Positions 38,456 to 54,746 of a stretch of 64,000 bases of DNA are shown here, one piece after another. The position numbers and the translations under genes are program-made. The notes under the pieces were generated by a model. It had not been told where the DNA came from, searched no databases, and saw only the letters and a program-made list of their open reading frames with translations. Location of the stretch: the NCBI RefSeq assembly GCF_901538355.1, contig NZ_LR593887.1, positions 4,316,920 to 4,380,919 of the forward strand, in the 5' to 3' direction. Source of the DNA: Tuwongella immobilis. Lineage in GTDB: Bacteria; Planctomycetota; Planctomycetia; Gemmatales; Gemmataceae. Every line of letters starts with the position of its first letter. Position 1 is the first letter of the stretch.

Positions 38456-39448
38456 ATGTCTGAAGTCGCGAGAACAACTTTTGCTTTTGTCGAGGACGGT
38501 GCCGAAGTAGGCTCCTTGACTTTCCGCACACCATTGCTGGAAAAGCCAAGAAGCTTGCCCGGCTTCCCTGGCGAGCAGGATGGTTTTGCGTTGTACCTGG
38601 CAATCAATGGGTTCCCGGTTACTGGAATTGCTTTGCCTGTGGTTCAGGATAAGGTGGATCTGCTAAGAAGCACCCCCCTCGTTTGGCCACTGCAGGTCGA
38701 AGATAAGTCCATCGGAAACAGCTTTATCGTAATTGAGGGGCACTTCCACGCGAAATTCTTCGGAGATGGCAACAGCGGTAAGGGGCGCTTCTTCGCGGAA
38801 TTCTTCGGAGATGGCAACAGCGATGAGGGGCACTTCCGCGCGGAATTCTTCGGAGATGGCAACAGCGGTGAGGGATCCTTCCGCGCGAAATTCTTCGGAG
38901 ATGGCAACAGCGGTGAGGGGCACTTCCACGCGAAATTCTTCGGAGGTGGCAACAGCGGTGAGGGGCACTTCCACGCGAAATTCTTCGGAGGTGGCAACAG
39001 CGGTGAGGGATACTTCCGCGCGGAATTCTTCGGAGATGGCAACAGCGGTGAGGGATACTTCCGCGCGGAATTCAACACGCCAGAAATAGGAATGTGGATC
39101 CACTCAAGGCGAGCGATAGGCATCGCTTTCACTCACATAATCTCGCACACAGTCAATCGTCTGAAATATCAAAAAGATGGAAAATTGTCTGTCTGCCTCG
39201 CAAGAGTGACCTACGACCCACAAATGGCTGCGATGTGCTCGCAGCCATTTCTGAAATTAGCATCGGCTACCGAGATCAACCTGCAGCGTCGTGCGGATGC
39301 ACTGCCGAAAAGTAGCTTTCGCCTCACATTCGACGACAAGGTAGCAGCGAAAGATGTCATATCATTCCTTTTGTTCTTACATGAACATGCAGTGGCAAAG
39401 GGGGGACACGGACTGAGCCTGTCGAGCAAACATGGGGAGGCAGGATAA
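38456..39448 (+). CDS. Protein with seven 15-residue tandem repeats (accessory island)
   Basis: 330 residues from ATG 38456, supported by GGAGG eleven bases upstream; a longer frame opens at 38336. The N-terminal 95 residues are a small domain. Residues 96-206 are seven copies of a 15-residue unit, consensus HFHAKFFGDGNSGEG, arranged like a short beta-helix or solenoid. The C-terminal about 120 residues are globular (RAIGIAFTHIISHTVNRLKYQKDG). The coding repeats are nearly identical at DNA level, so recently amplified. The family is not recognised. Confidence 0.6.
   Translation: MSEVARTTFAFVEDGAEVGSLTFRTPLLEKPRSLPGFPGEQDGFALYLAINGFPVTGIALPVVQDKVDLLRSTPLVWPLQVEDKSIGNSFIVIEGHFHAKFFGDGNSGKGRFFAEFFGDGNSDEGHFRAEFFGDGNSGEGSFRAKFFGDGNSGEGHFHAKFFGGGNSGEGHFHAKFFGGGNSGEGYFRAEFFGDGNSGEGYFRAEFNTPEIGMWIHSRRAIGIAFTHIISHTVNRLKYQKDGKLSVCLARVTYDPQMAAMCSQPFLKLASATEINLQRRADALPKSSFRLTFDDKVAAKDVISFLLFLHEHAVAKGGHGLSLSSKHGEAG
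38741..39073 (+). repeat. 45-bp tandem repeat, about 7.4 copies, coding
   Basis: Unit boundaries at 38741, 38786, 38831, 38876, 38921, 38966, 39011 and a partial at 39056. Differences between units are few (A/G in GGAGATGG versus GGAGGTGG, CAC/CGC/TAC). Phase is kept in the 15-residue reading frame; another frame is also open throughout. Confidence 0.95.
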
Positions 39449-42488: not shown

Positions 42489-43244
42489 GTGTTGAAATCA
42501 TTCGGACCATTCCTGATCGGGTTAGCGGCATGCGCCCTCACCCTGGCGTCACGCTCGACTGACCTTCCTGCCCAGGACAAAAAGACCGAGGAGAAGAAGG
42601 CGGACAAGAAGGGCAAGGGAGGTCCGCCCGGTCTCATCAAGCCGGCGATGGCCGACACCGTGAAGGGGAACGTCTACGCCGACAACTGGTTTGTCCTTTA
42701 CATCAACGGCAAACTCACGGCTCTCGATCCCATCGACTTCATCCCGCACAACGTCGTCTCGGTCGACATCCTGCCCGAGTACCCGATGACCATCGCGGTG
42801 ATGGCGAAGGACAACGCTGACCCCACGACCGGGCTGGAGTACGGCACTAACATCGGCGACGGCGGGTTCATCCTCAAGTTTGGCGACGGGACGGTGACGA
42901 ACGCTAAGTGGAAGGCGAAGTGCTTCTTTACCGGCCCGCTCGACAAGGACGTGAAGAACCCGAAGGTCAAGCATGATCCGATCCCCGACAACTGGTGGGC
43001 GGTGGACTTCGATGACAGCAAATGGGACACCGCCACCGAGTACGCCGAAGAGCGGGTGAACCCGAAGGAGTCCTTCTACAAGTTCGACTTCAAGGACGCC
43101 AAGTTCATCTGGACCGCCGACCTCGACCTCGACAACACGGTGATCTTCCGCCACCGGGTCGAGAAGCCCAACTGGAAGCCTCGTTGGAACACCAAACCGA
43201 ACCACGACATCTCCGGCGCGCTGCCGTGGAGGGCCGGAAAGTGA
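42489..43244 (+). CDS. Exported protein of the sigma-factor operon
   Basis: 251 residues from GTG 42489. Signal peptide (SFGPFLIGLAACALTLAS), a lysine-rich linker (KKTEEKKADKKGKGG), then a beta-rich domain with several W residues (NWFVLYINGKLTALDPIDFIPHNVVSVDILPEYPMTIAVMAKDN). The domain resembles a carbohydrate-binding or jelly-roll fold, but the family is not certain. It overlaps the next gene by four bases. Confidence 0.65.
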   Translation: MLKSFGPFLIGLAACALTLASRSTDLPAQDKKTEEKKADKKGKGGPPGLIKPAMADTVKGNVYADNWFVLYINGKLTALDPIDFIPHNVVSVDILPEYPMTIAVMAKDNADPTTGLEYGTNIGDGGFILKFGDGTVTNAKWKAKCFFTGPLDKDVKNPKVKHDPIPDNWWAVDFDDSKWDTATEYAEERVNPKESFYKFDFKDAKFIWTADLDLDNTVIFRHRVEKPNWKPRWNTKPNHDISGALPWRAGK

Positions 43245-45136
43245 AAACGTACATCTGGACCGCCCTGGCACTCGCTGCCGCCCTGCTCTCCACCGGCTCC
43301 GTGTCGGCCCACGACGGCGACCACCCCCCGGACATGCGGGTGTGGCGGGACACGGACGGCCTGTTCGAGATTGAAGGCTCGTTCGTGCTGGCCCGCGACG
43401 GGCGGGTGCAAATCCTCAAGCACGGCGGGTCCGTGGTGTGGGTACCGCTCGACAAACTGAGCGAGGCCGACCGCGCATGGGTCCGTGATCGCGTCGAGGT
43501 GATCCGCAGGATCAACGGGGCGTCGCCGGACTCCCGCCCCGACACGCCGTCGCCCGCATCATCCGCAGTGGGGGCCGGCGGGTCCGCCGACCCGACCTGG
43601 GAGGTTGTCGCCGTCTTCGTCGCGGTGATCGTCGCGGCGGCGGCTCGGAAGGCGGTCGGGAACAAGCGGAGCGGCGTGGTCGCCACGGTGCTTGTCATCA
43701 CCGGCGCGGCGGGCGTTCTCGCCACCGCCCAGGACGGCAAGCCGAAGTCGGCGATCCAGACCCACTTCGAGCCGTTCAAGGACAAACTCAAGTTCCGCAG
43801 CGACGACAAGTGGTTCTACGTCGAGTCGAACGGGATGCCCGACCACCCGATGATGGTCGGCATCACGGCGTGGCAACAGCAGTTGCCGATCCCGCAAGCC
43901 TACACGGGGCGGAATGCGTGGCAGATTCCTCTGTTTCCGAAGCTGTCCGACAAGCCCGTGTCGGCGAAGAAGGAATTGTTCCGGGGGGCCATCGCCTTGG
44001 CCGCGAACGGGGTGCCGATCTTCAACCCGATCAAGAACGACGGCAGGACCGACACGTTCCTGGCCGGCGAACTGGACGAGTACGGTGGTCACTGCGGGCG
44101 GGCCGACGACTACCACTACCACACCGCCCCTGTCCATCTGGAGAAGGTCGTTGGCAAGGGCAACCCCATCGGCTACGCCCTCGACGGCTTCCCCCTGTAC
44201 GGCTTCACCGACGCGGACGGGAAGGAGCCGACCGACCTCGACGAGTTCAACGGCCGGACGGAGAAGGACGGCTACCGCTACTACTCGACCAAGAAGTACC
44301 CCTACGTCAACGGCGGGTTGCGGGGTGTCGTCACTGTGAAGGACGACCAGATCGACCCGCAGCCACGGGCTTACTCACCCCGACCTGCCCTCACACCGCT
44401 GCGCGGGGCCAAGATCACCGGGTTCGAGCGGGACGACGACAAGAAGACGGTGACGGTGAAGTACGAGCAGGGCGGGAAGGTCGGTTCGGTGAAGTACACC
44501 GCCGCCGCCGACAGTTACCAGTTCGAGTTCACCGAACCCGGTGGGAAGACGACAACCGAGACGTACAAGGTCCGCGAAGACGGCAAGCGCCCACCGCCCA
44601 AGAAAGACGGCCCGCCGAAGAAAGAAGACCGGCCACCCCCGCCCAAGAAAGACGGCCAACCGCCCAAGGCGAAGGACGGGTTCACACTGTCCAGCCCGGC
44701 CTTCGAGCAAAACGGCAAGATGCCCGCCGAGTTCACTGGTGACGGCGATGGCGTGTCGCCACCGCTGAAATGGTCTGGCGCACCGGACGGAACGAAATAC
44801 TACGCCCTCCAACTGTGGCACAAACCAAAGGCCAACGGCAACGAAGTGAAGTCGTATTGGGTGGTCACGAACATCCCCGCCACCGTCACGGGCCTGGAGA
44901 AGAACAGCAAAGGCGTCGGCAAGGACGGGATCAACGACAAGAAGCGCACCGGCTACGACCCGATGAACTCGAAGGGACCGGGTGCGAAGGAGTACCACGT
45001 CACGCTGTATGCCCTGTCCGCCGAGCCGAAGTTCGACACGGACAAGGTGACACGGGCCGATCTGCTCAAGGCGATCAAGGACATCACCCTCGCCGAGACG
45101 ACGCTCAGTTACACCTACGAACGCAAAGCGAAATAA
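43241..45136 (+). CDS. SHD1-YHYH-PEBP three-domain exported protein
   Basis: 631 residues from GTG 43241. Signal peptide, SHD1-like domain (residues 28-85: DGLFEIEGSFVLARDGRVQILKHGGSVVWVPLDKLS), two hydrophobic segments (about 120-165), then YHYH domain (residues 175-370; CGRADDYHYHTAPVHL near 285-300). A charged PPKK linker leads to a C-terminal YbhB/RKIP-type PEBP domain (residues 480-631; FTGDGDGVSPPLKWSGAPDGTKYYAL, YWVVTNIPATV, EYHVTLYAL). The YHYH and PEBP domains are well supported; their joint role is unknown. Confidence 0.8.
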   Translation: MKTYIWTALALAAALLSTGSVSAHDGDHPPDMRVWRDTDGLFEIEGSFVLARDGRVQILKHGGSVVWVPLDKLSEADRAWVRDRVEVIRRINGASPDSRPDTPSPASSAVGAGGSADPTWEVVAVFVAVIVAAAARKAVGNKRSGVVATVLVITGAAGVLATAQDGKPKSAIQTHFEPFKDKLKFRSDDKWFYVESNGMPDHPMMVGITAWQQQLPIPQAYTGRNAWQIPLFPKLSDKPVSAKKELFRGAIALAANGVPIFNPIKNDGRTDTFLAGELDEYGGHCGRADDYHYHTAPVHLEKVVGKGNPIGYALDGFPLYGFTDADGKEPTDLDEFNGRTEKDGYRYYSTKKYPYVNGGLRGVVTVKDDQIDPQPRAYSPRPALTPLRGAKITGFERDDDKKTVTVKYEQGGKVGSVKYTAAADSYQFEFTEPGGKTTTETYKVREDGKRPPPKKDGPPKKEDRPPPPKKDGQPPKAKDGFTLSSPAFEQNGKMPAEFTGDGDGVSPPLKWSGAPDGTKYYALQLWHKPKANGNEVKSYWVVTNIPATVTGLEKNSKGVGKDGINDKKRTGYDPMNSKGPGAKEYHVTLYALSAEPKFDTDKVTRADLLKAIKDITLAETTLSYTYERKAK

Positions 45137-49406: not shown

Positions 49407-49549
49407 GACCCCACATATGAACTTGCGAACCCTATGTTCAGATGAACACAAGGAATGTAAATCATGACCATCAAAAGGTCAAGAGTGTGGAAGTGGTTTT
49501 TCAGAAAAAATGATTTGCGTCGGAATTTGCGCCACCGGTTGCGAAACAC

Positions 49550-49572
49550 GCAGTTTTCAGCCTGAAAACTGC
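49550..49572. repeat. Near-perfect 11-bp inverted repeat
   Basis: GCAGTTTTCAG and CTGAAAACTGC, separated by one base, lie directly beside the att-like fragment. It may be an integrase or excisionase arm site, or a terminator without a T run. Confidence 0.7.
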
Positions 49573-49577
49573 AATGT

Positions 49578-49597
49578 TTCGACTCCCGCCGCCTCCA
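49578..49597 (+). other. Displaced 3' end of a tRNA or tmRNA gene (candidate attR)
   Basis: TTCGACT (T loop), CCCGC (3' side of T stem), CGCCTCC (3' side of acceptor) and A (discriminator) appear in order, with no matching 5' T stem or gene body upstream. The sequence is the typical ending of a tRNA or tmRNA. It is followed three bases later by a terminator, as such genes normally are. Integrases commonly use the T-loop-to-3'-end segment as their core, leaving such a stub at the far border of an island. Confidence 0.6.
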
Positions 49598-49600
49598 CTG

Positions 49601-49637
49601 AAAGGCCGCTTGCGATTCGTCGCGGGTGGCCTTTTTT
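49601..49637 (+). terminator. Rho-independent terminator with UUCG-type tetraloop
   Basis: AAAGGCC pairs with GGCCTTT; inside, CTTGCGA pairs with TCGCGGG around loop TTCG; six T follow. It directly follows the RNA-gene stub. Its location inside the longest open frame of the cas fusion argues that the fusion starts later. Confidence 0.88.
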
Positions 49638-49806
49638 CATGGCGTCGTCGTTCTGCGGGGCGAGATTTGTTCGCGCGGGGATGAGGCTTTTTTTCGTTGC
49701 GTTGTCATTGCGTGTCGTGTTGGTTCGTAGCTGGATGGGGGACTGCGCGCCGCGGGTTGGGTGGCCGGCTGGGGTGCGCATCCGTGCAATCAGCGAGACG
49801 AATCGA

Positions 49807-52563
49807 ATGCGGAAGCCATCGCCGATCTTTCGGGTGCGTTGGACGTTGCAACTTCGTGGGCCGCTGATGATGCCGCCGTTGCCGCATGCCGTGCTGTATG
49901 CACTGCTGTGCGAAACCAACCGCGACGACGGGAAACCGCAACTGCCCAGCAATCTGCTGCTCGATGCTCCCGAGCGATCGCGTCCGGAAATGGAGGCCGG
50001 CGAATGCTATTCGTTCGGGGCGACGCTTGTGGATGCCGATCCGCAGCAAGGGAGCCGCCGCTTGTGGGCAATCACCGAGGCGTTGGCGCAACTCGGGCAG
50101 ACGGTGCCCGCGAAGCCGGTGCATCTGGGCGGGAATTTCGATCTGGTCGAAGTCCGCGATTGCGCTTGGAATCGGAACCTGCAGCCGGGCGAGGCGTTTC
50201 AGCCGCTTTCCATGCTGACGATGATGCTGGAATCGCTGCATTTGCAATCGCCGACGGTGACATTGCATTTCCACAGTCCGTTGCGGTTGGCGCGGCCCAA
50301 TTCGGAAGCGCGACCGGGGCACGAATATGCGGACGCCGATTGGTTCCATGCCGGGCAGTTGTTGCGGGCGGTGCAAAAGCGCGTGATGGCGCTCGGGCTG
50401 ATGCCGGCGGATCAGCCGACCTTTGAGGATTCGGCCATCGCGTTGCGTCGCAACCGCTTGCACTGGCTGGATTTGGAATACGGCAACTCCGATCGGCGGC
50501 GGGCGCTGGGTGGTGCGCTCGGTCGCGTGGAATTGCTGGTGCCCGATGCCAAGGCGCGGGAAGCATTGGTCTGGGGGCAGTATGCGCGGGTTGGCAGCAA
50601 TGTGAATTTCGGGTTCGGGAATTATCGCATCGAGGAACTCGGGCCGGATGAGCATGCCTGCGATCGGGCGGTGCCGTTGTTGCATGCCGCCCTGCGAGAT
50701 GCGGATCTGCCCAACGCCATTGCCATCAGCAAAGCCCCGGAACAGGCGACGCTCGAAGCGGCTGCGGCAGCCCGCGATGGGGACTACTCCCCTGCTCCGC
50801 TGCAAGCGCTGACCATCACCGACCCGGATGGCCAACCCCGTCGATTGGGCATTCCGATTGCGCGGGATCGGGCCTTGCAACGGGCGATTCTCGGACGCTT
50901 GAGCCGCCCGGTGGATCTGCTGTTGGAAGCATCATCGTTCGCCTGGCGGCGTGGATTCAGTCGAGAATCGGCGGCCAAACGGATTCAACGGCTCTACCGC
51001 GAGGGATGGGCATATGCCGTGCATGCGGATTTCGACCGCTTCTTCGATTCCATCTCGCTGACCTTGTTGGCCGACCGATTGGAAGCCTGGCTGGGCGACC
51101 GTGCCACCACCGAATTGATCCTGCGCTTGCTCGCGCCCAGCGCGGATTTCGCGGCACCGCCCCCGCGCGCCCTGCCGGATGGCTTGCCGACCGGTGCCCC
51201 GTTGTCGCCGTTGTTGGCCAACTTGCTGCTGGATCACTTCGATGAATCGGTGCGTCGGGCGGGCGGCGAATTGGTGCGATACGCGGATGATTTCCTGATT
51301 CTCACGCATACCATCGCGGAAGCGGAGCAGATGCTGGCATTGGCGCATCATCTGGCGGGGTCGCTGCAATTGCGATTGAACGACGATGCGAAGATTCTCG
51401 ATCTGGGCGAGCCGTTCCGCTTCCTCGGCTTCGATTTCCAGGAACAGGGCACCTGGCAACTGCAATCCTCCGATGGGCCGGTGGAAGTGCCGGATCTCGG
51501 CTGGCGGCAAGCGCGGCGCGAACCGCCGACACTGCATCCTCCATTGCCGGGCGAATCCGAACCACCGCCACCGATTCGCGCGGTGGTGCTGGGGGCGGAA
51601 GTGCAATCGGCGGATGTCGTGGGCGAGGAGTTGCAGATTCGCCGAGAGTTGCTGCCGCAAGTGGAACGGATTCCGCTGGCCGGATTGGAGCAGGTGCTCA
51701 CCGTCGGCCCGATTCCCTGGACCAGCGACGCCCTGGGCAAGCTGCTGCACGCGGAAGTGCCCGTGCAACTGCTCTCCGCCAGCGGCTGGCCATTGGGCGA
51801 ACTGCGCCCCGAAGATGCCGATCTCGAACATCCCGAAGTGCTGCTGGCACAAGCGGATGCGGTGCGTAATCCCACCATTGCACTGGGAATCGCCCGCGTG
51901 TTGGTGCGTGCGAAGATTCGCAACTTTGCCACGCTTTGGGAAGCGCTGGATGCCGAATCGACCGAAGTTCCGCAACGGCTGCGGGCCTGGGCCAACGATG
52001 CGGAACAGGCGCAATCGCTGGAATCGCTGCGCGGGGTGGAAGGGGCGGCGGCCGCGCATTGGTATCGCCATTGGCGGCGGTTTCTGGGTCGCGGCTTCAG
52101 CTTCCCCGGTCGCGTCGCCCCGGATGCCTCCGATCCGGTGAATGTGATGCTCAACATCGCCCATTCGCAATGGTATCGCCAGGCACGGGCTGCCGCACGC
52201 ATGGCCGGTTTGTCCCCCGGTTTGGGCTTCCTGCACAGCAGCGATCGCCGATACGCATCCCTGGCCGCCGATCTGCAAGAGCCGTTCCGCCATGTGGTGG
52301 AACGCGCCGTCTTGCAGGCCACCCGGATGTTGAAGCGAAGTCAATTCGTCGAACGCAGCGATGGCCCGCACAAGCTGCACCTGGAACATCGGGCCGGGCT
52401 GCGCTTCCACGCATTGCTGCAACGCAGTCTGTTGGTTGGTGTCGTCGCTCGGGGCCAAACCGAACCTCGGGCCTGGATTCATCAACTGCTGGCAACCGCC
52501 CGCAGTTTGCGTCGTCACCTGCTGAGTCCTCAAACTCCCTTCGAGGCATTTGAACACGCATGA
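49807..52563 (+). CDS. cas6-RT-cas1: Cas6-reverse transcriptase-Cas1 fusion protein
   Basis: About 918 residues from ATG 49807 (MRKPSPIFRVRWTLQLRGPL); the frame is open to 49510, but that part contains a terminator. Residues 1-285: Cas6, ending in the glycine-rich loop (VGSNVNFGFGNYRIEEL). Residues about 370-560: RT, with HADFDRFFDSI (motif A, about 408), LPTGAPLSPLLANLLL (about 459-475) and YADD at 492-495, all intact. Residues about 590-918: Cas1, with GVEGAAA (E745), GFLH (H810) and ADLQEPFR (D822, E825). Known relatives acquire spacers from RNA as well as DNA, and their Cas6 part cuts pre-crRNA. ATGA overlap with cas2. Confidence 0.95.
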   Translation: MRKPSPIFRVRWTLQLRGPLMMPPLPHAVLYALLCETNRDDGKPQLPSNLLLDAPERSRPEMEAGECYSFGATLVDADPQQGSRRLWAITEALAQLGQTVPAKPVHLGGNFDLVEVRDCAWNRNLQPGEAFQPLSMLTMMLESLHLQSPTVTLHFHSPLRLARPNSEARPGHEYADADWFHAGQLLRAVQKRVMALGLMPADQPTFEDSAIALRRNRLHWLDLEYGNSDRRRALGGALGRVELLVPDAKAREALVWGQYARVGSNVNFGFGNYRIEELGPDEHACDRAVPLLHAALRDADLPNAIAISKAPEQATLEAAAAARDGDYSPAPLQALTITDPDGQPRRLGIPIARDRALQRAILGRLSRPVDLLLEASSFAWRRGFSRESAAKRIQRLYREGWAYAVHADFDRFFDSISLTLLADRLEAWLGDRATTELILRLLAPSADFAAPPPRALPDGLPTGAPLSPLLANLLLDHFDESVRRAGGELVRYADDFLILTHTIAEAEQMLALAHHLAGSLQLRLNDDAKILDLGEPFRFLGFDFQEQGTWQLQSSDGPVEVPDLGWRQARREPPTLHPPLPGESEPPPPIRAVVLGAEVQSADVVGEELQIRRELLPQVERIPLAGLEQVLTVGPIPWTSDALGKLLHAEVPVQLLSASGWPLGELRPEDADLEHPEVLLAQADAVRNPTIALGIARVLVRAKIRNFATLWEALDAESTEVPQRLRAWANDAEQAQSLESLRGVEGAAAAHWYRHWRRFLGRGFSFPGRVAPDASDPVNVMLNIAHSQWYRQARAAARMAGLSPGLGFLHSSDRRYASLAADLQEPFRHVVERAVLQATRMLKRSQFVERSDGPHKLHLEHRAGLRFHALLQRSLLVGVVARGQTEPRAWIHQLLATARSLRRHLLSPQTPFEAFEHA

Positions 52564-52835
52564 GTCGCTACGTCGCTGCCTACGATATTGCTCGCAACTC
52601 CCGCCGCGATCGTGTCGCCCGCATCCTCCGGGAATATGGCCGCCGGGTGCAACGCAGCGTCTTCGAGATCGACATCGACCCCGAAGACCTCAACGACCTG
52701 CAATTGCGGATCGGATCGCTGCTGGCCCGCGATGACCGCTTCGACTTTTTCCCGATTGATGTGCGATTTCCGCAACGTCGGCTGTCGTGGCAACGAAATC
52801 CCCTTGTCGATTCGTGTGTCATTGTGATAGGATGA
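52560..52835 (+). CDS. cas2: CRISPR-associated Cas2
   Basis: 91 residues, ATG overlapping the fusion gene's stop. SRYVAAYDIARNSRRDRVARILREYGRRVQRSVFEIDIDPEDLNDLQ has the Cas2 beta-alpha-beta start with the conserved D (YDI) and R-rich helix. It forms the central dimer of the Cas1-Cas2 integrase. Confidence 0.93.
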   Translation: MSRYVAAYDIARNSRRDRVARILREYGRRVQRSVFEIDIDPEDLNDLQLRIGSLLARDDRFDFFPIDVRFPQRRLSWQRNPLVDSCVIVIG

Positions 52836-53184
52836 TTGTGTTGGAATGATGGTCTGGGCCAGCGAGCGGCATTGTTACCCTCGACCCGCCCGCACCATCA
52901 CCCCAACACCCGGTTGCATCGCTCGCCATGGTTGTGGTGTCGATGCAACCCCCTGACTCGATCGGTGTTGTCGAGGATGCGGCCACGCCCCCAAATGCCC
53001 GGCGTCCGCGGAAACGACCCACCGCCAAGACCACCGTCTCGCTCCCCAATTTTGGAGCCTCGGTGTTGTCGATGAATCGTTCTTTGACATGTGAATCATT
53101 CCACGCAATCCCAAGATGCGACGCAACCGGTTGCCCCGCAACAACTTGCGTTGATCTTCCGCGATATCACACCGACCCCAGTCG
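52836..53184 (+). promoter_or_regulatory. CRISPR leader region
   Basis: No gene is seen in these 349 bases between cas2 and the first repeat. They contain a 10-bp inverted repeat GGTTGCATCG/CGATGCAACC (52912-52950) and a 13-base direct repeat TCGGTGTTGTCGA at 52962 and 53060. The leader side is fixed by the degenerate last repeat at the far end. These repeats are candidate adaptation or promoter motifs. Confidence 0.7.
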
Positions 53185-54746
53185 GTCCCTTGACTCCCGA
53201 ATCCGGCGAGAATTGAAACGGAGGAGGGTTTTCAACTTCGCCGCCAGCAAGCTGGTCCCTTGACTCCCGAATCCGGCGAGAATTGAAACGAGTCAATGCA
53301 GCCAGTGACGCTTGACGCGCGTCAACGTCCCTTGACTCCCGAATCCGGCGAGAATTGAAACAACTTCCCGACCCGTGTCGACGTCCCAAATTTTCACAGT
53401 CCCTTGACTCCCGAATCCGGCGAGAATTGAAACAGCCACCAGGTGGCTCGGACCGTCTTCCGGACGGTCCCTTGACTCCCGAATCCGGCGAGAATTGAAA
53501 CTGCTCTGCCCAGTAATCTGCTAGGATGCCGAGGTCAGTCCCTTGACTCCCGAATCCGGCGAGAATTGAAACGGAGAATTTTCCCGGACATCGTATCGCG
53601 GCGTCGTCCCTTGACTCCCGAATCCGGCGAGAATTGAAACCCGCCCTGACCGCCGTTGGCCACGACGTTGTTAGTCCCTTGACTCCCGAATCCGGCGAGA
53701 ATTGAAACAAATCACTACCCTGTTCGCCGAGAAGGGTATAGTGTCCCTTGACTCCCGATTCCGGCGAGAATTGAAACTATCCTTCTTGCCGTCCTTCTTG
53801 GGCTCGTCCTGTCCCTTGACTCCCGAATCCGGCGAGAATTGAAACGTCTGGAAGTTCTGCTGCTCGAGGTACGGCAAGTCCCTTGACTCCCGAATCCGGC
53901 GAGAATTGAAACGACGAGATTGTGCCGGGATGCAATCTCGGGCAGTTGTCCCTTGACTCCCGAATCCGGCGAGAATTGAAACTCCATCGGGGTTGAGGGC
54001 AAAGCGCCCTCGCCCGTCCCTTGACTCCCGAATCCGGCGAGAATTGAAACAGCGTCGAAGCGAGTTGGTGCGGTGCCACTTGGTCCCTTGACTCCCGAAT
54101 CCGGCGAGAATTGAAACACTGCGGTCTTGATCTGGTCGCGGTGCGGCATCTGTCCCTTGACTCCCGAATCCGGCGAGAATTGAAACAAATTTCTCTTTCT
54201 GACTGCCCGCGTTGTTGGGGGAAGAGTCCCTTGACTCCCGAATCCGGCGAGAATTGAAACCCAGCCAAGCTCTCCCGAAGTAGAACTAAATGCGTCCCTT
54301 GACTCCCGAATCCGGCGAGAATTGAAACCGCCTTTGGCGGCGAGCTTGTCCGGGTCAACGTCCCTTGACTCCCGAATCCGGCGAGAATTGAAACCGACCC
54401 CCTTTCTCGATGACATCGGCCAGATATGGTCCCTTGACTCCCGAATCCGGCGAGAATTGAAACTGAACGTGGCGCGCGGCTGCGGCCCGTCACTGTTGTC
54501 CCTTGACTCCCGAATCCGGCGAGAATTGAAACGAGCCTATGGAGATTCCAATTATCGGGTCAGGTTCTTAAGTCCCTTGACTCCCGAATCCGGCGAGAAT
54601 TGAAACCCGCCCTGACCGCCGTTGGCCACGACGTTGTTGGTCCCTTGACTCCCGAATCCGGCGAGAATTGAAACTCGGGTTGACCGCGTGTTCCGCCTTC
54701 GTCATCTTGTCGTCCCTTGACTCCCGATTTCGGCGAGAATTGTGAC
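53185..54746 (+). CRISPR. CRISPR array, 23 repeats and 22 spacers
   Basis: The repeat is 35 bases: GTCCCTTGACTCCCG, then AATCC, then GGCGAGAATTGAAAC. The final ATTGAAAC would form the 8-base 5' handle of Cas6-cut crRNAs. Repeat starts: 53185, 53255, 53327, 53399, 53467, 53538, 53606, 53674, 53743, 53811, 53878, 53948, 54016, 54083, 54152, 54226, 54294, 54360, 54429, 54498, 54572, 54640, 54712. Spacers are 31-39 bases. Repeat 9 has one change (GATTCC); the last has GATTTC and ends GTGAC, marking the leader-distal end. Spacers 7 and 21 are nearly identical. Confidence 0.99.

Follow-up and report, generated by a model that had tools for sequence, protein, structure and literature searches.

A Cas6-reverse transcriptase-Cas1 fusion locus in Tuwongella immobilis and its probable remote partner, a type III-B Cmr operon

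Introduction

A 64,000-nucleotide stretch of the Tuwongella immobilis chromosome (positions 4316920-4380919 of one 6,690,754-base contig, here called the window) carries a gene in which Cas6, reverse transcriptase (RT) and Cas1 domains are fused, followed by cas2 and an array of clustered regularly interspaced short palindromic repeats (CRISPR). No effector gene adjoins them, which raises the question of what, if anything, uses the CRISPR RNAs (crRNAs) of this locus. An earlier reading of the window made from its letters (the sequence-only reading) offered two answers, a remote effector or a stand-alone adaptation unit. Its statement that such fusions are known, usually near type III genes, is only half right as to the second part: about half of all RT-cas loci are without effector genes and have been proposed to act in trans (Silas 2017, PMC5513706).

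Results

The genome has a single type III effector, 2.31 Mb from the fusion locus

A search of the whole genome, as the sequence-only reading had proposed, disclosed a single Cas10 at 2.0527-2.0541 Mb, and RAMP (Cas7-like) genes were confined to 2.0515-2.0582 Mb. The genes are arranged in the order cmr1, cas10, cmr3, cmr4, cmr5, cmr6, TIGR02221 (a CARF/HEPN protein) and csx15, the corresponding NCBIfam names being Cmr1, Cas10/Cmr2, Cmr3 (under the cut-off), Cmr4, Cmr5, Cmr6, TIGR02221 and Csx15. Cas10 retains GGDD, and the TIGR02221 protein retains RNACAH, which matches the R-x4-H signature common in HEPN RNases. This Cmr operon is on the same chromosome as the fusion locus, 2.31 Mb away and surrounded by ordinary genes; searches of its surroundings found no CRISPR array over 40 kb, and neither cas1, cas6 nor RT genes over about 79 kb. 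It is thus a complete cmr1-6 set with Cas10 standing apart from any array, cas6 or cas1, as in a split III-B system.

At the fusion locus the reverse was found. The sequence-only reading had seen no Cas10, Csm/Cmr or Cas7 within 14 kb to the left or 9 kb to the right, and tblastn with III-B, III-D and I-G proteins extended this to the window and 20 kb on each side, where no effector genes were detected and no cmr genes adjoin the adaptation genes. A decayed III-D operon was sought over the same range and none was found; the III-D genes for Cas10d, Cas5 and Cas7 present beside the fusion in relatives are absent here. Because the Cmr operon is without array, cas6 and cas1 and the window has these without an effector, the two are complementary halves, and the earlier suggestion of reliance on a remote effector is supported.

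The fusion protein retains its RT and Cas1 catalytic residues

The single 918-aa chain matched Cas6 (E 2e-6), RVT_1 (4e-20) and Cas1 (8e-48) in Pfam, and the domain order, like the adjacent cas2 and array, is that of Cas6-RT-Cas1 adaptation modules. Its open reading frame extends from 49510 to 52563 (1017 aa), while homologues align from about 49807; since they begin there, 49807 was taken as the best start and the in-frame start at 49510 is probably unused. When 11 full-length homologues were aligned, Y492, D494 and D495 of the YADD motif (492-495) were invariant and A493 nearly so, Cas1 residues E745, H810 and D822 were invariant, and G263, G269 and G271 of the Cas6 glycine loop were retained. 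The catalytic residues of RT (F/YADD) and Cas1 (E, H, D) are therefore all intact, as had been read from the sequence, and the alignment contains none of the inactivating changes of which that reading had warned.

The Cas6 domain is less clear-cut. Its glycine loop is kept, in line with the earlier proposal that the fusion could process crRNA, but its N-terminal His loop is displaced with respect to relatives (PPLPHAVLYAL against HxHxxxxxYAL), so that an active Cas6 is probable rather than assured. Loss of the catalytic His was weighed and is not claimed, as relatives also vary at that site; the Thiomicrospira Cas6 uses R37 (PMC8102632). The Thiomicrospira Cas6-RT-Cas1 protein (7kft/7kfu) was the top Protein Data Bank match both by sequence (E 1e-55) and by fold, as found by Foldseek with an AlphaFold model (E 2e-43, 984 columns); the model has a mean pLDDT of 83 and a pTM of 0.58.

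Nearly all spacers of the window array look antisense to coding sequence

In a type III system a spacer has to be antisense to the RNA that it targets (PMC5576922). The strand of each window spacer was assigned with a 3-periodic coding model trained on the genes of this genome, which gave the correct coding strand for 82% of held-out fragments of 32-37 nt. It replaced a codon-only model that was weak, with 69% correct. The repeat end (handle ATTGAAAC) and the degenerate distal repeat served to set the crRNA direction. Across several variants of the model, 18-20 of 21-22 spacers were called antisense (p 0.0001-0.0015), against about 50% of shuffled spacers, and this matches what a fully antisense array would give at 82% accuracy. 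Read as their reverse complement, the spacers can be exemplified by VKIWDVDTGREV, which is WD40-like.

No other array of the genome had so strong an orientation. A 204-repeat array of type I-G kind, described below and presumed to target DNA, leaned the same way (119-127 of 201-203 across models, 63%, p 0.0004-0.01), and Cmr could use its crRNAs too. Among relatives, arrays that have their effector in cis also lean antisense, but more weakly (46 confident calls antisense, 14 sense), and the small I-G arrays of relatives show no such lean.

Either selection by Cmr or RNA-templated acquisition could produce the antisense excess. It is conceivable, though doubtful, that the near-uniform strand arises from oriented RNA-templated integration by the fusion rather than from later selection, in a module feeding a III-B effector adopted after loss of a III-D one; the orienting mechanism would then be unlike that of Marinomonas, where the strand bias of spacers is only moderate (PMC5576922).

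Gene content and surroundings of the locus

The cas2 gene and array noted earlier alongside the fusion were both confirmed (Table 1). The repeats are 35 nt long and nearly identical, except for the degenerate final distal one, and the spacers measure 31-39 nt. A further proposal of the sequence-only reading, to look for the same repeat elsewhere, gave no second site in the genome. Searching viral_contigs with the repeat gave zero exact matches, and comparison of the array with its own genome by blast gave no convincing self-target, the best match (27 nt at 93%) being judged a chance one. Spacers 7 and 21 differ at their last base only (CCGCCCTGACCGCCGTTGGCCACGACGTTGTT, A/G), which could reflect either duplication or repeated capture from one target.

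Table 1 Features of the fusion locus, in positions of the window.
Feature	Position	Strand	Basis
Cas6-RT-Cas1 fusion, 918 aa	49807..52563	+	Pfam, PADLOC and NCBIfam; PDB homologue 7kft; AlphaFold with Foldseek; 11-way alignment
Cas6 domain core	50263..50625	+	PF10040, residues 252-372 of the 1017-aa frame; entire domain about 49807-50680
Reverse transcriptase domain with YADD	50821..51435	+	PF00078; Y492 A493 D494 D495 conserved
Cas1 domain with E745, H810, D822	51625..52380	+	PF01867; residues invariant in 11 homologues
cas2, 91 aa	52560..52835	+	PF09827, E 1e-15; 4-nt overlap with the end of the fusion
Presumed leader, cas2-array interval	52836..53184	+	Position; degenerate repeat at the opposite array end
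CRISPR array, 23 repeats GTCCCTTGACTCCCGAATCCGGCGAGAATTGAAAC, 22 spacers	53185..54746	+	Repeat found at no other site of the genome

The neighbouring genes are ordinary: a YHYH/PBP protein, a sulfatase and a phosphoesterase on the left, an oxidoreductase and TruD on the right, the latter as expected from the earlier description of the right flank as ordinary chromosome. Elsewhere in the window, the protein encoded at 43022-45136 combines SHD1, YHYH and phosphatidylethanolamine-binding-like domains, and short tandem direct repeats with a period of about 45 occur at 38753-39036, their spacing not being CRISPR-like.

Relatives of the fusion point to a change of partner

Full-length relatives of the fusion (30-42% identity) were found chiefly in Planctomycetota. 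Those with enough flanking sequence mostly have III-D-type effectors adjoining (G190, G256, G431, L084, L100), and one, L083, adjoins a III-B effector. The sister of the window fusion, in a Planctomycetota metagenome-assembled genome of the same family (G018/L088), has 53% identity over the Cas1 part and 100/100 support in the tree. Because this sister and most flanked relatives adjoin III-D effectors, the fusion probably arrived with a III-D partner, lost it, and now shares the chromosome with an unlinked III-B effector. Such a switch of partner is consistent with the report of Silas et al. (PMC5513706) that effector type is not linked to the RT-Cas1 tree, and in the present tree, too, the effector label does not cluster.

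Other CRISPR parts are scattered over the genome

A pattern scan for arrays with TTGAAAC ends, which arrays with other repeat ends could escape, gave three in the genome, at 480 kb, at 839 kb and in the window, each ending in ATTGAAAC. The same 8-nt handle occurs at the array beside the III-B-linked relative L083. It was present in 2 of 7 III-B and 0 of 12 III-D loci, a difference that is not significant, and as a marker of III-B versus III-D it is suggestive only. The 480-kb array (480147-481390, 16 repeats) has no cas genes that were found nearby; its spacers 8 and 10 both read M-x-YVSYLVHQD on the reverse strand and appear to be directed at two variants of a single gene, each antisense.

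Two stand-alone cas6 genes were found, one at 838 kb beside the 839-kb array (L070, 9658-11193) and one at 3.824 Mb (L073, 10190-11182). Since relatives of the 838-kb cas6 in G001, G006 and G068 stand divergent to an RT and Cas1 of a different type, an adaptation gene once paired with it may have been lost from T. immobilis.

The genome also contains a complete type I-G operon at 1.428-1.436 Mb, in array-free surroundings. The 204-repeat array with a repeat of I-G kind (ATTTCCACAGACAAAAATCTGTGGCCGAATTGAAGC) is at 5942866-5957854 on the minus strand (L207, L208), with no cas genes found near it, and, should the chromosome be circular, is about 2.2 Mb from the operon. Both CRISPR systems of this genome are thus apart from their arrays, and scattering is the rule here.

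Discussion

Taken together, the single Cas10, the complementary absences, the intact RT and Cas1 motifs and the antisense spacers suggest, with a probability of about 0.72, that the window locus is an intact module for adaptation and crRNA processing served in trans by the III-B Cmr complex, whose genes lie at a distance of 2.31 Mb. RT-Cas1 and Cas2 would capture spacers from the RNA, or DNA, of an invader and insert them into the adjoining array, and the Cas6 domain would cut the array transcript to crRNAs bearing the 5' handle AUUGAAAC. These would be loaded in trans into Cmr, the sole type III effector encoded here, a step that the antisense spacers support indirectly. Cmr would recognise those transcripts of the invader to which the spacer is complementary, and cyclic oligoadenylate made by Cas10 would switch on the neighbouring CARF/HEPN protein.

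Several observations weigh against this reading. The sister fusion adjoins III-D, not III-B, genes, and Cmr operons of the same type occur in ten other Gemmataceae genomes, all without the fusion; because of these ten genomes the pairing is not obligate. No cas1, cas6 or RT gene was found in their Cmr stretches (L184-L194, 6-20 kb), and these genomes often have type I-G-like cas1 genes in addition to Cmr. In T. immobilis itself, Cmr may have older partners in the two other TTGAAAC arrays and the two other cas6 genes. The strand test was designed after the spacers had been viewed and covers one array of 22 spacers, and no exact protospacer match was obtained for two spacer cores in viral_contigs; for these reasons the antisense spacers are support, not proof, for a working type III array.

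Cmr might instead be served mainly by the stand-alone cas6 genes and the arrays at 480 kb, 839 kb or 5.94 Mb (the last being the large I-G one), the window module being a recent acquisition that supplies Cmr with few crRNAs or none. The shared ATTGAAAC end of the 480-kb and 839-kb arrays, one of them next to a stand-alone cas6, speaks for this, as do the antisense lean of the I-G array, the adjacency of the Cmr operon in G016 to an array whose repeat is I-G-like, and the genome G001, which has Cmr elsewhere than the RT-Cas1 of another type that adjoins its cas6 relative. It was nevertheless considered unlikely, as the genome has just one type III effector and the window array is the most strongly antisense of all its arrays, which points to its use, or its past shaping, by an effector that targets RNA. 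Service of the window array by Cmr and use of the other arrays are compatible in part, and both can hold.

The second answer offered by the sequence-only reading, a stand-alone unit, was weighed as a memory or recording unit without interference, together with the related case of a non-working relic left after loss of a III-D effector. The absence of effector genes from the window and its flanks and the III-D genes beside the sister fusion would suit either, but the motifs are intact, the repeats are near-identical, the spacers have a strand order not expected of a passive array, and a type III effector does exist in the genome. This possibility is accordingly improbable, and the stand-alone unit is not supported. 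The sequence-only reading had also cautioned that misassembly might have split an adjoining type III operon from the locus. Apart from that caution no data support an artefact: the locus is flanked on either side by an unbroken run of chromosomal genes within one 6.69 Mb contig, the Cmr operon is likewise among ordinary genes, and the Cmr operons of the ten other Gemmataceae are equally without adaptation genes in the stretches examined, all of which makes such an error very hard to credit.

Comparison with known systems

The separated arrangement of module and effector that we propose for T. immobilis is already known for RT-cas loci. The window locus resembles the effector-less ones (PMC5513706) in having no adjoining effector; it differs in that the whole genome was searched, the sole candidate effector can be named, and the strand of the spacers supports its use. 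In both taxon and architecture the fusion agrees with clade 8B of RT-CRISPR, which comprises Planctomycetia and Proteobacteria within a clade 8 that holds most Cas6-RT-Cas1 fusions and consists mostly of them (Toro et al. 2017, PMC5541045), and it may belong there. With the Thiomicrospira protein (7KFT/7KFU, PMC8102632) and that of Marinomonas mediterranea MMB-1 it shares the domain order, the adjoining cas2 and array, the intact RT and Cas1 motifs and the predicted fold, although it belongs to a divergent planctomycete branch, the fold match to the Thiomicrospira protein having about 21% identity. The MMB-1 module sits in a III-B operon with effector and array (PMC5576922), whereas the probable effector of the window locus is 2.31 Mb distant; the Marinomonas III-B complex is itself known to use crRNAs of another system (PMC5576922). 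A further counterpart is the G018/L088 locus, where the sister fusion has its own array, as in the window, but is followed immediately downstream by III-D-type effector genes.

T. immobilis thus offers a clean whole-genome case of an RNA-capable spacer-capture module standing apart from its probable effector, in a genome whose CRISPR parts are widely scattered, and the spacer strand test provides a cheap probe for the use of orphan arrays when protospacers are unknown.
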